64,000 nt of DNA from Filimonas sp. Lineage in GTDB: Bacteria > Bacteroidota > Bacteroidia > Chitinophagales > Chitinophagaceae. The notes below the pieces were generated by a model. That model had not been told where the DNA came from. It searched no databases and was given only the letters and a program-made list of their open reading frames with translations. This document shows, one piece after another, positions 1,488 to 8,029 of the stretch. The position numbers and the translations under genes were made by a program. Numbering within the stretch: position 1 is the stretch's first letter; each line of letters begins with the position of its first letter. The DNA lies in assembly GCA_017306865.1 (NCBI GenBank), contig JAFKHH010000012.1, forward strand, positions 124,001 through 188,000. Direction: 5' to 3'.

Positions 1488-3356
1488 ATGTTTTCTCAGT
1501 ACGATGTTATAGTAGTTGGAGCAGGGCATGCAGGTTGTGAAGCTGCTGCTGCTGCTGCCAATATGGGTAGTAAAGTTTTATTGATCACCATGAACATGCA
1601 GACTATTGCTCAAATGAGTTGTAATCCTGCTATGGGTGGTATAGCTAAAGGACAAATAGTTAGGGAAATAGATGCATTAGGTGGGTACAGTGGAATCGTA
1701 ACTGATGAAAGTATGATCCAGTTCCGTATGCTAAACAGGAGTAAAGGTCCTGCTATGTGGAGTCCAAGATCTCAAAATGATAGAATGCTCTTTGCAGCTA
1801 CCTGGAGAGAGAAGTTAGAGATGACCCCTAATGTTCATTTCTACCAGGACATGGTACAATCAATCATTATTAAAAATGGTAAGGCTTGTGGAGTAGTTAC
1901 GGGATTAGGCCATTCCATAGAATCTAAATCTGTAGTGGTAACTAGCGGTACATTTCTAAATGGTGTAATACATATAGGAGAGAAGCGGTTTGGTGGAGGG
2001 CGTGTAGCGGAGAAAGCAGCCACTGGTATTACAGAACAATTGGTAGAACTAGGCCTCGAAAGTGACCGCTTAAAAACCGGTACACCTCCACGTATAGATG
2101 GCAGAAGCCTGGACTATTCTAAAATGGAAGAACAAAAAGGAGATGAAGAGGTAACAGGTTTCTCTTATCTCGACTCAAAGAAAATAAAACCAGACCAGCA
2201 AAGAAGCTGCTTCATTACTTATACCAATACACAAGTACACGATATTCTTAAAACCGGTTTTGACAGAAGTCCCATGTACACGGGAAGAATAGAAGGTGTA
2301 GGCCCAAGATATTGTCCAAGCATAGAAGATAAGATCAACCGCTTTGCTGAAAGAGATCGTCACCAGATATTCGTAGAGCCGGAAGGTTTCAATACAGTAG
2401 AAATATATGTAAACGGGTTTTCTACTTCATTACCGGAAGACGTACAACACAAAGCTTTAACCTCTATACCAGGGTTTGAAAATGCAAGAATGTTCAGACC
2501 AGGTTATGCAATAGAGTATGATTATTTTCCACCTACGCAGTTAACACACTCCCTCGAAACAAAACAGATAGCCAACCTATTTTTTGCAGGCCAGATAAAT
2601 GGAACCACTGGTTACGAAGAAGCAGCTTGCCAGGGAATAATGGCCGGTATGAATGCCCATTTAAAAGCATTCAATAATGATCCATTTATACTGAAAAGGA
2701 GTGAAGCATATATTGGTGTATTGATAGATGACCTTATCAGTAAAGGAACGGATGAACCGTACCGTATGTTTACCAGTCGCGCAGAATACAGGACTCTATT
2801 AAGGCAAGACAATGCTGACCTTAGATTAACAGAAATGAGTTACAGGTTAGGCCTGGCTTCACAAGAAAGAATGGACCGTGTGATTGAGAAAAGAAAAGCA
2901 GTAGAAAGAATAAAAAAAGCGTTGTCTGAATTTTCCTTTGAACCATCTGAAGTAAATCATTATCTCGAAAGTATTGGCTCTGCTTCCTTAACAGAAAAAC
3001 AAAAAGCAGCTAAAGTTTTACTCAGGCCCGGAATAGATTTAGTTTCTCTTTTATCAAATGTTGAGCGATTGAAAACAACATTTGAAAATGAAAACAGGGA
3101 ATCACTGGAGCAGGCAGAAATCCAAATTAAGTACGAACGTTATATTGAGAAAGAGCAAGAGCTGGTAACAAAAATGGGCCAGATGGAAGACGCCATCATC
3201 CCACAAACTTTCGACTATGATAAAGTGGCTTCACTCAGTAATGAAGCACTACAAAAATTCAAAAAAATAAAACCAAGAACACTTGGCCAGGCAAGCCGCA
3301 TTAGCGGGGTTAATCCAAGTGATGTACAGATATTGATGGTGTATATGGGGAGATAA
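1488..3356 (+). CDS. mnmG: tRNA uridine-5-carboxymethylaminomethyl modification enzyme MnmG (GidA)
   Basis: MnmG, with MnmE, installs the carboxymethylaminomethyl group on wobble U34 of several tRNAs, using FAD and methylene-tetrahydrofolate. The 622-residue protein opens with the FAD dinucleotide fold VVGAGHAGCEA. It then shows the GidA signatures CNPAMGGIAKG and LKTGTPPRIDGRS, the second FAD motif FAGQINGTTGYEEAA, and the C-terminal helical domain ending in GVNPSDVQILMVY. Length is normal. gidA is classically an origin-proximal gene, which fits the parS-like sites just upstream and the DnaA-box cluster 2 kb downstream. Confidence 0.97.
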   Translation: MFSQYDVIVVGAGHAGCEAAAAAANMGSKVLLITMNMQTIAQMSCNPAMGGIAKGQIVREIDALGGYSGIVTDESMIQFRMLNRSKGPAMWSPRSQNDRMLFAATWREKLEMTPNVHFYQDMVQSIIIKNGKACGVVTGLGHSIESKSVVVTSGTFLNGVIHIGEKRFGGGRVAEKAATGITEQLVELGLESDRLKTGTPPRIDGRSLDYSKMEEQKGDEEVTGFSYLDSKKIKPDQQRSCFITYTNTQVHDILKTGFDRSPMYTGRIEGVGPRYCPSIEDKINRFAERDRHQIFVEPEGFNTVEIYVNGFSTSLPEDVQHKALTSIPGFENARMFRPGYAIEYDYFPPTQLTHSLETKQIANLFFAGQINGTTGYEEAACQGIMAGMNAHLKAFNNDPFILKRSEAYIGVLIDDLISKGTDEPYRMFTSRAEYRTLLRQDNADLRLTEMSYRLGLASQERMDRVIEKRKAVERIKKALSEFSFEPSEVNHYLESIGSASLTEKQKAAKVLLRPGIDLVSLLSNVERLKTTFENENRESLEQAEIQIKYERYIEKEQELVTKMGQMEDAIIPQTFDYDKVASLSNEALQKFKKIKPRTLGQASRISGVNPSDVQILMVYMGR

Positions 3357-3573: not shown

Positions 3574-4350
3574 TTGTTTTTACATATTATAAGAAAATAT
3601 AATTTAATATTACTTTTCTTTGTCTTCCCTTCCCTTGCTAATGCTCAAACCACGACCATAGAAGGAAGAGTTACGGACTTTGAAAACAGGAGGCCTTTGG
3701 AAGCCGTTGCCGTTATTACCACTGCCGGTAAGGGAACAATTACAGATTCTCTCGGCAGGTTCTCTATGCAGGTAAATAAAAAGGATTCGGTATATTTTTC
3801 TTACCTGGGCAAAAATACCAGGCCAATGCCTGCAGATACTATTGCCAATTCCCCCGCATTTGAATTAGGCCTTCATATAGATTCCCGCTGGTTACCTAGC
3901 GTAACGGTGAAGAACAGAAGCTATACGATGGACTCTATACAAAACAGGCGTGACTATGAAAAATACTTCAACTTTAAAAAACCAGGGATAGCGCTTAGCT
4001 CCAACCCACCTTCCACTTATACAAACGGTAGCCTGACTGTAGGGTTAGACCTTGACGAATTCATCAACATGTTCCGCTTTAAGCGTAATCGTTCACTTGC
4101 CCTGCTCCAGCAAAGATTGTTACAGGATGAACAGGATAAATACATCAATCACCGGTTCACTAAATTATTCGTAAGAAAGCTTACGGGCCTGGAAGGGGAG
4201 CAGCAGGAAACGTTTATGAAGATCTACAGGCCGCAGTACGATGTACTGCTCCAGATGAATGATCTGGAGCTTGGTTACTACATCGAAATATGTTACAAGA
4301 AATTTAAACAGACGTCAGAAAAATTCTATTCTCCGTTAAAACTCAATTAG
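3574..4350 (+). CDS. secreted protein with carboxypeptidase-regulatory-like domain, function unknown
   Basis: This 258-residue protein has a signal peptide (hydrophobic run ending LANAQ, about residue 25). Next comes a carboxypeptidase D regulatory-like beta-sandwich ([21 protein letters not shown], then GRFSM), the type common at the N-termini of Bacteroidota surface proteins. The C-terminal half is charged and helical and I do not recognise it; no barrel or enzyme motif is visible. The only usable start is TTG at 3574, as no ATG occurs before the mature region. Its stop overlaps the convergent nadA stop by three bases. Probably periplasmic or surface-associated. Confidence 0.75.
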
Positions 4351-5363
4351 CCCCCGATAAGGCCTGCTTTTCTACTAATATCAAGCATCCGTTCTATCGG
4401 TTTTAAAGAAGCTACACGAAGGTTTTCTTCCATAGTTATTTCCGGCATCTCATACTCCATACACAAATACAGCTTTTCCAGCGTATTTAGCTTCATATGC
4501 GGGCAATCGTTGCACGCACAGGCATTATCCGGCGGAGCAGGAATAAAAGTCTTATTTGGGGCGTCTTTTTGCATTTGGTGCAATATGCCTGTTTCCGTAG
4601 CTACAATAAACTCGTTTGCAGCATCCGTAACTGCATATTTCAACAACTGGGTAGTACTGCCTACAAAATCGGCAATTCTGAGGATTGCATCTTCACATTC
4701 CGGGTGAGCAATCAATTTAGCGTTCGGATTACGCATTTTAAGCTTCGTAATCTTCTCCAAACTGAAAATCTCATGTACCATGCAGGCGCCGTTCCAGAGG
4801 ACCATATTTCGCCCCGTAATCTTATTTAGGTAAGCACCCAGGTTTTTGTCCGGTGCGAAGATGATCGGCTGGTCTTCAGGAACACTTTCTATGATCTTGA
4901 TCGCATTGCTGCTTGTGCAGATAATATCGCTCAGCGCTTTTATTTCTGCAGTGCAGTTTATGTACGAGATCACAATATGGTCAGGATACTTTTCTTTAAA
5001 CTTTTTAAACAACCCGGCAGGTGCACTATCAGCCAATGAGCAGCCGGCATTCAGATCCGGTAACAACACCTTTTTGTTTGGGTTAAGAATCTTCGCCGTC
5101 TCAGCCATGAAATGGACACCTGCAAAAACGATGATGTCCGCATCTGTTTTTGCAGCCGCTTGCGCAAGGCCCAGGCTATCCCCAATATAATCTGCCACAT
5201 CCTGTATATCCGGCTCCTGGTAATAGTGGGCCAACACAATTGCATTTTTTTCTTTTTTCAATCTTTCGATCTCATGAAACAAATCTATCGTAGGGTCAAC
5301 GTCCACATCCAGAAATCCTTTCTTTTCAATATTTGCGCTTGCTTCAACAATGTTCATATCCAT
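4347..5363 (-). CDS. nadA: quinolinate synthase NadA
   Basis: NadA condenses iminoaspartate with dihydroxyacetone phosphate to quinolinate in de novo NAD synthesis, using a [4Fe-4S] cluster. The 338-residue protein has the start [22 protein letters not shown]. Cluster cysteine regions are visible at NAGCSLADS (C108), NGACMVHE (C194) and the CxCxxC block near residues 282-287 before PHM. Two in-frame ATGs lie close together and I take the first. No nadB or nadC is adjacent. Its 5' end borders the gene-free origin candidate, so its promoter must lie within or beside that region. Confidence 0.96.
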
Positions 5364-5370
5364 CGTAATA

Positions 5371-5395
5371 TTCTTTAATAATTAATTATTTATAT
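5371..5395. other. AT-rich block, possible DNA-unwinding element
   Basis: The 25 bases at 5371-5395 are A/T except for a single C. They sit at the nadA edge of the DnaA-box cluster, where an unwinding element would be expected. They also overlap the likely nadA promoter region, so the role is ambiguous. Confidence 0.4.
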
Positions 5396-5714
5396 AACCC
5401 ACTACTATTATTAGGGCTGTGGAAATCAGGATAACTTACTTATCCCCAGAGTACAAAGTTAATTATATCATCACTATCCACCTTAATCCACAAATAACCC
5501 ACATTGCAAAATTGAGTCCTGTTATGGATTTGAGCTGCTTTCCCACAAGAGTGGAAAATCTAAACCTGGTTTATACCCATCCACTAGTTAACACGAAATC
5601 CACTGTTAATTAACGGGGAGTAAAAAGTGGGGATAAATGTGGATTTCCGAAAATCTCCAAAAACTGTCCAAATTATTCCACCAGTTTCCACACCAGCCGA
5701 TGAAAAAAGTAAGC

Positions 5715-5723
5715 TTTTCCACA
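5715..5723 (+). promoter_or_regulatory. DnaA box TTTTCCACA
   Basis: This is an exact match to the relaxed DnaA consensus TTWTnCACA, in the middle of the candidate origin, with one-mismatch boxes on both sides. Confidence 0.6.
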
Positions 5724-5843
5724 CAAAATGAGGGTTCTTCACAGATTTGTGTTAAAACATGTTCCACGAATTCCACACCCACCCGGAACAAGCCTAAAAT
5801 CGACCAGAACTTACAAAACCCTGAAAACCTTTGAAAATGGCGG

Positions 5844-5852
5844 TTATCCACA
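5844..5852 (+). promoter_or_regulatory. high-affinity DnaA box TTATCCACA
   Basis: This is identical to the strongest E. coli DnaA boxes. It lies at the ppiD edge of the candidate origin, one base before the -33 element of the downstream promoter, so DnaA bound here could also affect ppiD transcription. Confidence 0.7.
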
Positions 5853-5853
5853 A

Positions 5854-5884
5854 TTTGTTCAAATATTATATTCCCCTATTTTTG
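5854..5884 (+). promoter_or_regulatory. promoter of the ppiD-like gene
   Basis: TTTG (5854-5857), a 19-base spacer and TATTTTTG (5877-5884) match the Bacteroidota sigma-ABfr promoter consensus (TTTG, 17-23 bases, TAnnTTTG). The start codon follows 30 bases later. This is the best promoter match I found in the window. Confidence 0.65.
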
Positions 5885-5914
5885 CCATCCTTATTGTAAA
5901 CTTATAAATATAGT

Positions 5915-8029
5915 ATGTCAGTTATTCAAAGAATTCGTGACAAAGCCGCCTGGATTATTTTCGGAGCGATTGCCCTTGCCCTTATTGCCTTTATAGTACA
6001 GGATGCTTCATTCAGAAGAGGTAATGTATTTAGCAATTCTTCCACTATCGGAAAAGTAAACGGCCAGAGTATAGATAAAAAAGAGTTGGACGAAAAAATT
6101 GCATTGGTAGAACAGATGCAACAGGCACAGGGTGTGCAACGTGACCAGCTAATTTCAAGTGTATGGAACTTTATGGTAGACGAGACTGTGTTAAAACAAC
6201 AGTATCAAAAACTCGGACTGGCATTTAGTGCGAAAGAATTAAACGACATCCTGTTTGGTAATAATCCACCAGCATGGTTAAGACAGCAGTTTACTGATCC
6301 TGCGACCGGTGTATTTAATGTAGACCAGGCAAAACAATATTTTGCCCAGATCAAAAAACAAAAAGACAATCCGAACGTATCATTATTTTATAATGCATAC
6401 ATACAGCCAACGATTGATCAGACACTTCGCCAGAAATACAATGAGCTAATCTCTGGTGCTGTGTATGTTCCAAAATGGATGGCAGAAAAAACAAGTACAG
6501 ACAACAACGGTATTGCTAACATATCTTATGTATATGTACCATACGCAAGCGTTAGCGACAGTGCTGTAAAAGTAAGCGACGATGAAATTGCTGCTTATCT
6601 GAGCAAGCATCCAAATGATTTTAAACAAGACGAAGAAACAAGACAGGTTTCTTATGTAACATTTGATGCAACGCCAAGCGCACAGGACTCTGTAGCAGTG
6701 TTCAACCAATTGTCTACCCTGAAAAGCGAAATGGCTACAAATAGCGATATGAAAACTTTCATAGGTGTGAAAGGTTCTGAAGCGCCGTTTTTTGATGGTT
6801 ACGTTACAAGCGTAAATATGAAAATGCCAAATGCTGATACGTTGAAAAGATTAGCTGACGGCCAGGTATATGGTCCTTACCTCGATGGTCAAAACTACGT
6901 GGTTGCTAAAATGGTGGGACGCCGCGAAATGCCGGATTCTGTAAAAGTTCGTCACATATTGGTGAAAACTGCTGACAGAGGCCAGCCAGTTTTAGCTGAC
7001 AGTGTAGCTAAAGCACGTATCGACAGTATTGCAAATGCTATTAAAGCAGGTGCAAGCTTTGAAGCAATGGTTGCTAAATATTCTGATGATGATGGCAGCA
7101 AAGGAACTAAAGGTGAATATGAATTCCCTTCTTCACAATTTGGTGGCTTAACAAAAGAATTTGCTGAAACAGCATTTTATGGTAACGCCGGCGATAAAAA
7201 AGTAGTGAAGGTAGAAAGCGGTGGATATTCTGGTTATCACTATATAGAAGTATTGCAACAGAAAAACAGGCAGACTGCATATAAAGTAGCTTACTTATCT
7301 AAACCAATTGCAGCAAGCCAGGAAACAATCAGCGCAGCAAGCAGTGCATCACAACAGTTTGCAGCAGCAAGCAGAAGCAAAAAACAATTTGAAGAAACTG
7401 CTACTAAGCAAAATAAAGCGCCGATCTTCTCCCCAGAACTTAGAGAAAATGATTTCTCTATCCCGGGTCTTGGTGAAAACAGAACATTTATCAAATGGAT
7501 ATTTGAACACAATACAGGCGATATTTCTGAACCAACAGAAATTGGCGAACACTACGTTGTAGCATTGATTAATTCTGTGAATAAAGCAGGTTTACTGTCT
7601 GCAGCAGCAGCTCGTCCAATGGTTGAGCCAATTCTTAAAAACGAGAAGAAAGCACAGCAGATCATTGCTGCTAAGTTTAAAGGAAATACACTGGAGGCAT
7701 ATGCTCAAAGCGCGGGTACAACTGTTCAGCGTGCTGACAGCATTTCATTCCAATCACCTGTTATTAACGGTGTAGGTAATGAGCCAAAAGTAATTGGTGT
7801 AGCATTTAATAAAAATATCCAGGGCAAAGTATCTGAACCAATAGCAGGAAATACGGGTGTATTTGCTGTAAAAGGTGAAGGTATCAGCGCAAGAGCATCT
7901 ATGTCTGCTTCACCTGACGATCAGCGCAAAGCTATTGAAAACAATATGCGTGCACAGATCCGTTACAGGTCAATGGATGCTATCCGCAGAGCGGCTGAAG
8001 TAAAAGATTTCCGTTCTAAATTTTTCTAG
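5915..8029 (+). CDS. ppiD: PpiD/SurA-type peptidyl-prolyl cis-trans isomerase
   Basis: This is a 704-residue membrane-anchored periplasmic folding factor. One transmembrane helix lies near residues 13-30 (AAWIIFGAIALALIAFIV) after a short cytoplasmic start. A SurA-N-like chaperone domain follows, then one parvulin (PpiC) domain at about residues 342-445, from VKVRHILVKT through YSDDDGSKGTKGEYEF to YHYIEVL, and a long C-terminal region. The architecture matches PpiD, which helps newly exported outer-membrane proteins fold. It has a clear promoter at 5854-5884 and a strong terminator at 8050-8082, so it is probably monocistronic. The exact symbol is by architecture only. Confidence 0.88.
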   Translation: MSVIQRIRDKAAWIIFGAIALALIAFIVQDASFRRGNVFSNSSTIGKVNGQSIDKKELDEKIALVEQMQQAQGVQRDQLISSVWNFMVDETVLKQQYQKLGLAFSAKELNDILFGNNPPAWLRQQFTDPATGVFNVDQAKQYFAQIKKQKDNPNVSLFYNAYIQPTIDQTLRQKYNELISGAVYVPKWMAEKTSTDNNGIANISYVYVPYASVSDSAVKVSDDEIAAYLSKHPNDFKQDEETRQVSYVTFDATPSAQDSVAVFNQLSTLKSEMATNSDMKTFIGVKGSEAPFFDGYVTSVNMKMPNADTLKRLADGQVYGPYLDGQNYVVAKMVGRREMPDSVKVRHILVKTADRGQPVLADSVAKARIDSIANAIKAGASFEAMVAKYSDDDGSKGTKGEYEFPSSQFGGLTKEFAETAFYGNAGDKKVVKVESGGYSGYHYIEVLQQKNRQTAYKVAYLSKPIAASQETISAASSASQQFAAASRSKKQFEETATKQNKAPIFSPELRENDFSIPGLGENRTFIKWIFEHNTGDISEPTEIGEHYVVALINSVNKAGLLSAAAARPMVEPILKNEKKAQQIIAAKFKGNTLEAYAQSAGTTVQRADSISFQSPVINGVGNEPKVIGVAFNKNIQGKVSEPIAGNTGVFAVKGEGISARASMSASPDDQRKAIENNMRAQIRYRSMDAIRRAAEVKDFRSKFF

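Follow-up and report, generated by a model that had tools for sequence, protein, structure and literature searches.

The replication origin (oriC) of Escherichia coli lies away from dnaA and near mnmG, and has an AT-rich unwinding element at its edge, beside a DnaA box. Its address is the interval from gidA to mioC (PMC10225481). Origins with a basal unwinding system (BUS) follow a sequence rule: a DnaA box, a spacer of at most 16 bp, and at least three trinucleotides, or trios, with a central A (NAN) (PMC8287927). In these origins the better box most often lies 10–13 bp from the trios, the GC-rich gap averages 4 bp, and the boxes are arranged in tandem; the published BUS assays placed the trios on a 5′ tail (PMC8287927). 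Known dif sites are found close to the shift in skew that is located across from the origin (PMC3025954).

Here, we examined a 64,000-nucleotide stretch of a Filimonas sp. genome (the window), which comprises bases 124001–188000 of the 762-kb contig C29 in a draft assembly of 6.15 Mb and 42 contigs. A sequence-only reading of the window had proposed oriC in the gap that separates nadA from a ppiD-like gene. Our results support this proposal, and the gap is very likely the chromosomal replication origin. The assignment draws on a cluster of DnaA boxes, on a conserved module that is unique in the genome, and on relatives, in which the site lies nearly opposite dif (29 genomes) and coincides with a switch in strand skew (genome G203). 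The gap and the genes around it are as follows.

1488–3356, plus strand: mnmG (gidA), origin-proximal gene (Pfam GIDA, E 1.2e-166)
4347–5363, minus strand: nadA, quinolinate synthase, flanking gene (Pfam PF02445, NadA, E 3.6e-123)
5364–5914, no strand: proposed oriC, a gap of 551 bp between the divergent nadA and ppiD-like genes
5915–8029, plus strand: ppiD-like gene for a SurA_N/rotamase protein, flanking gene (Pfam SurA_N_2, Rotamase_3)

The gap fills exactly all of the space from nadA to the ppiD-like gene. The protein of the latter has its closest named matches in a Chitinophagaceae MAG, in Deminuibacter soli and in Filimonas zeae (67% identity over the best segment), which suggests that the genome belongs to Chitinophagaceae. 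The gap had been described as gene-free. Two open reading frames that reach 80 aa touch it, one within the gap (minus strand, GTG start, 5606–5851, 81 aa) and a second that begins inside nadA and extends 15 bases into the gap; neither of these frames was backed as a gene. At positions 4–576 of the window there is a cytidylyltransferase-like gene resembling nadD, which shares a stretch of 6 kb with mnmG and nadA. With the nadD-like gene and nadA so close by, two probable NAD-synthesis genes adjoin the proposed origin.

DnaA boxes were scored with a degenerate consensus, TTWTNCACA, and with a strict one, TTATCCACA. Under the degenerate consensus, the gap holds two exact boxes and ten with one mismatch, eight of the total on the plus strand and four on the minus strand. 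The sequence-only reading had listed exact boxes at 5715–5723 (TTTTCCACA) and 5844–5852 (TTATCCACA), together with at least eight one-mismatch boxes in both orientations. Both statements agree with the count under TTWTNCACA, while under the strict consensus only the box at 5844 is exact and that at 5715 has one mismatch. We then compared the gap with 660 kb of C29. For boxes with at most one mismatch, the gap holds 5, where the mean is 0.19 per 551 bp and the runner-up has 3; for boxes with at most two mismatches, it holds 15–16, where the mean is 2.2 per 551 bp and the runner-up has 9. The cluster is beyond chance, and nowhere else in these 660 kb are DnaA boxes packed as densely. Individual boxes are as follows.

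5418–5426, minus strand: DnaA box ATTTCCACA, inner box of an abutting pair (T and CACA invariant in a 57-sequence profile, the CACA by construction)
5426–5434, minus strand: DnaA box TTATCCTGA, outer box of the abutting pair, two mismatches (family consensus here TTATCCCC)
5440–5448, plus strand: DnaA box TTATCCCCA; several relatives have boxes at about this nadA offset (77)
5484–5492, plus strand: DnaA box TAATCCACA; many relatives have plus-strand boxes 110–129 bases from nadA
5571–5579, plus strand: DnaA box TTATACCCA
5628–5636, minus strand: DnaA box TTATCCCCA
5715–5723, plus strand: DnaA box TTTTCCACA, nadA offset of about 352, common to several relatives
5735–5743, plus strand: DnaA box TTCTTCACA, nadA offset of about 373, common to several relatives
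5844–5852, plus strand: DnaA box TTATCCACA, exact, 71 bp ahead of the ppiD-like start

The enrichment extends to the family. The gap between nadA and ppiD is kept in 45 family regions, with a mean of 10.2 boxes per gap compared to 2.0 after local shuffling, and 30 of the 45 have a plus-strand box 45–95 bp ahead of ppiD.

The most telling element of the gap is one missing from the earlier reading, namely an unwinding module at the A/T edge. The minus strand of this nadA-side edge reads GTTATCCTGATTTCCACAGCCCTAATAATAGTAGTGGGTTATATAAATAATTAATTATTA: two abutting boxes come first, followed by GCCC, by TAA/TAG repeats (TAATAATAGTAG), and by AT-rich DNA. Its parts, beyond the two boxes given above, are these.

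5414–5417, minus strand: GC spacer GCCC, from boxes to trios (family consensus GCCS)
5402–5413, minus strand: DnaA-trio-like repeats TAATAATAGTAG (family consensus TAATAGTAATAG)
5402–5421, minus strand: module core, 5′-CACAGCCCTAATAATAGTAG-3′, the only match to CACANNNNTARTARTARTRG in the 6.15-Mb genome
5366–5411, no strand: AT-rich unwinding element that overlaps the trios (nearest-neighbour instability at the 99.994th percentile for 660 kb of C29)

An A/T block at one edge of the gap had already been noted; it is the unwinding element on the nadA side, which the percentile of duplex instability identifies as an easily melted AT-rich element beside the boxes. The repeats are separated from the outer box by 12 bp and from the inner box by 4 bp. 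Thus, as in the BUS rule, the boxes at the nadA edge are followed within 16 bp by at least three NAN trios. Judged by sequence, the candidate trio strand may be either the box strand, on which the repeats read 3′-GAT/AAT-5′, or its complement, which reads 3′-GAT-TAT-TAT-CAT-5′ with a central A throughout, in a frame that begins one base inside the spacer.

Herein, we describe how initiation might proceed at such a module. DnaA, supplied from its gene on contig C38, would bind the box cluster of the 551-bp gap. Monomers would start at the abutting minus-strand boxes (5418–5434), cross the GCCC spacer, and reach the trios (5402–5413). DnaA on the trios would then open the neighbouring AT-rich DNA (5366–5411), and the helicase would be loaded there. 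Two forks would depart, one through nadA and mnmG and the other through ppiD.

To describe conservation of the module we used a 20-base search pattern, CACANNNNTARTARTARTRG. Upstream of nadA, the pattern was exact in 51 of 67 distinct Chitinophagaceae regions and present with at most one mismatch in 62; reversed or shuffled controls gave 0/67 at this threshold and always had at least three mismatches. The end of the motif usually lies 36–41 bp ahead of the nadA start in the 67 regions, and almost every one of the 45 family gaps shows the layout of box, spacer, repeat and AT-rich DNA. When whole genomes were searched, the pattern was present in 25 out of 31 family genomes, compared to 1/31 for the reversed control, and the genome studied here has a single match, at the gap. 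Beyond the family, 80 genomes from the order and more than 110 from the class contained the pattern at about the control rate, and no match adjoined nadA. Thus, this exact form of the module is a family feature, and different forms may exist in other families. Additional matches in four genomes (G128, G245, G257 and G102) and the sole match of a fifth (G132) adjoin neither nadA nor ppiD, and were rejected as chance matches.

Rearranged genomes separate the module from its neighbours. The genes nadA and ppiD lie apart in the three genomes of genus g20 (G019, G129, G217) and in G023, G219 and G270, and in all of these the module is found at nadA. In G153, a family member of 2.0 Mb without a nadA match, the module (L294, G153:C1:451433) adjoins ppiD. 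Since it follows nadA when ppiD has moved and ppiD when nadA has been lost, the module is more than the promoter of one neighbour, and it seems to be kept for its own sake.

Next, we considered the position of the site on the chromosome. The family dif was taken as TATAATTTATATTATGTTAA, which we infer to be dif because it resembles known XerCD sites and occurs only once. Most complete genomes have one copy at 0–1 mismatch; the closest copies in G102 and G257 differ at three positions and are less certain. In the draft studied here, a single copy with one mismatch lies at C3:316700–316719 (L201) and marks the probable terminus contig. Because this copy is on another contig, the position relative to dif was tested in relatives only. 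There, the site lies about opposite dif: the distance had a median of 0.451 of the chromosome and exceeded 0.40 in 24 of 29 complete relatives (KS p 4e-12 versus uniform, p values being guides, given that most lengths were rounded to 0.1 Mb and that the species share ancestry). The distance from dnaA to dif had a median of 0.306, exceeded 0.40 in 4/20 genomes, and was not distinguishable from uniform. One exception is G075, in which the site (G075:C1:4370983, L222) is only 0.22 from dif (G075:C1:2771865); a large inversion, a misassembly or a moved dif is suggested. Genus g20 is another exception, with a distance of 0.31–0.33 in all three genomes, which suggests that the genus shares replichores of unequal length or that dif has moved. 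The module sites of this genus are listed here.

G019:C1:2375598 (L218)
G129:C1:4046227 (L216)
G217:C1:2707403 (L217)

In G217, ppiD lies 543 kb from the module and is nearer to the antipode of dif.

In all 20 complete genomes checked, the gene mnmG lies no more than about 31 kb from the site, as expected from the earlier remark that gidA/mnmG is a frequent origin neighbour. In one complete genome, mnmG is broken across two frames (G121:C1:5559915–5561779), perhaps through a sequencing error. The same reading had allowed for an origin not adjacent to dnaA, and this is what we see: dnaA is encoded on C38 rather than beside the gap, and in complete relatives it is far from the site. In 7/20 complete relatives, dnaA lies inside the first kilobase of the record.

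A switch of strand skew and gene orientation at the site was clear in one relative, G203, confined to GC skew in G005 and G148, and weak in C29 itself. For G203 (complete, 3.72 Mb), we took 20 evenly spaced samples of 20 kb and divided them into the two arcs from the site to dif. The arcs differed in gene orientation (0.62 vs. 0.28, p 0.0003), GC skew (+0.030 vs. −0.047, p 0.0001) and AT skew (+0.010 vs. −0.043, p 0.0006). With dif held fixed, the top-scoring origin interval, 0.95–1.10 Mb, begins at the site (0.95 Mb). In G005 (p 0.004) and G148 (p 0.02) the arcs differed by GC skew, and not by AT skew or gene orientation. On C29, the sequences left and right of the gap differed in gene orientation (0.43 vs. 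0.61, p 0.03) and AT skew (−0.012 vs. +0.030, p 0.014), while GC skew across the gap fell short of significance; third-codon-position skews were weak and of mixed sign. The cumulative minima lie 11.7 kb (purine and AT) and about 31 kb (GC) from the gap, and the skew of the contig is so weak that skew alone places the origin only to about ±30 kb. According to the sequence-only reading, a distant skew minimum would have spoken against an origin here. Instead, the combined skew and orientation change points of C29 spread over about 110–170 kb and span the gap (129.4–129.9 kb), and in G203 the switch falls in the adjoining sampling interval.

These observations also bear on other explanations of the gap. 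By box count alone, a cluster in a conserved gap looks like datA or DARS of E. coli, a set of boxes that titrates or reactivates DnaA and regulates an origin elsewhere. Such an element requires neither a position opposite dif, nor a skew switch, nor a module of box, spacer, trio and AT-rich DNA, yet all of these are present. Moreover, a second module site is absent from the genome, and the site is not separate from the origin, as a datA or DARS element should be, but in relatives falls at the skew switch and at the dif antipode. We regard this explanation as very improbable. Slightly less probable again is a divergent promoter or regulatory region in which DnaA acts solely as a transcription factor. 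The gap must hold the promoters of the divergent genes on both its sides, but the promoter of one gene would not be found both at nadA when the genes are apart and at ppiD without nadA, and the position opposite dif and the skew switch would be left unexplained.

The least probable explanation, to which we give almost no weight, is that the true origin lies at dnaA on C38, as in many bacteria, and that the gap is a relic. In its favour, the records of several complete relatives start their numbering at dnaA, and the dnaA region of C38 has two exact copies of TTATCCACA. However, in relatives dnaA does not lie across the chromosome from dif (median 0.306), no comparably dense box cluster occurs in the 140 kb of C38 that were read, and the module is absent from the dnaA region.

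As oriC, the gap is very probably an origin of an ordinary kind whose address is not named in the open literature searched. There, we found no previous paper that ties the origin to nadA, whether in Bacteroidota or in Chitinophagaceae; DoriC was outside the search, and earlier single-species predictions are possible. More tentatively, the family may possess an origin design of its own, near-fixed as TTATCCCC, then NATNCACA, GCCS and TAATAGTAATAG, which is independent of its neighbours and from which dnaA has wandered; this might be an initiation arrangement of Bacteroidota not yet described, a suggestion that we consider possible rather than probable. The site offers a sequence-based oriC address for a whole family in which dnaA misleads, and the 20-base pattern locates the origin in draft genomes. 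Since the common family site is far from dnaA, records numbered from dnaA do not begin at the origin. Where position 1 of such a record is assumed to be the origin, maps, replichore analyses and coverage-based estimates of growth rate would be wrong. The 551-bp fragment is small enough for autonomous-replication testing.

Among described systems, the gap resembles the incC-type BUS oriC of Bacillus subtilis (PMC6669920, PMC8287927) in its tandem boxes, short GC-rich spacer, trinucleotides with a central A, AT-rich DNA beyond the trios, and further boxes at a distance. Unlike that origin, it is not beside dnaA, its two boxes overlap by one base, and only the first of its complement-strand trios (3′-GAT-TAT-TAT-CAT-5′) is the consensus GAT. 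It is like the E. coli oriC in lying away from dnaA and near mnmG, with an AT-rich unwinding element at one edge, and unlike it in being flanked by nadA and ppiD instead of gidA/mnmG and mioC. With datA and DARS of E. coli it shares a box cluster, while its position opposite dif, the skew switch and the module fit an origin instead.
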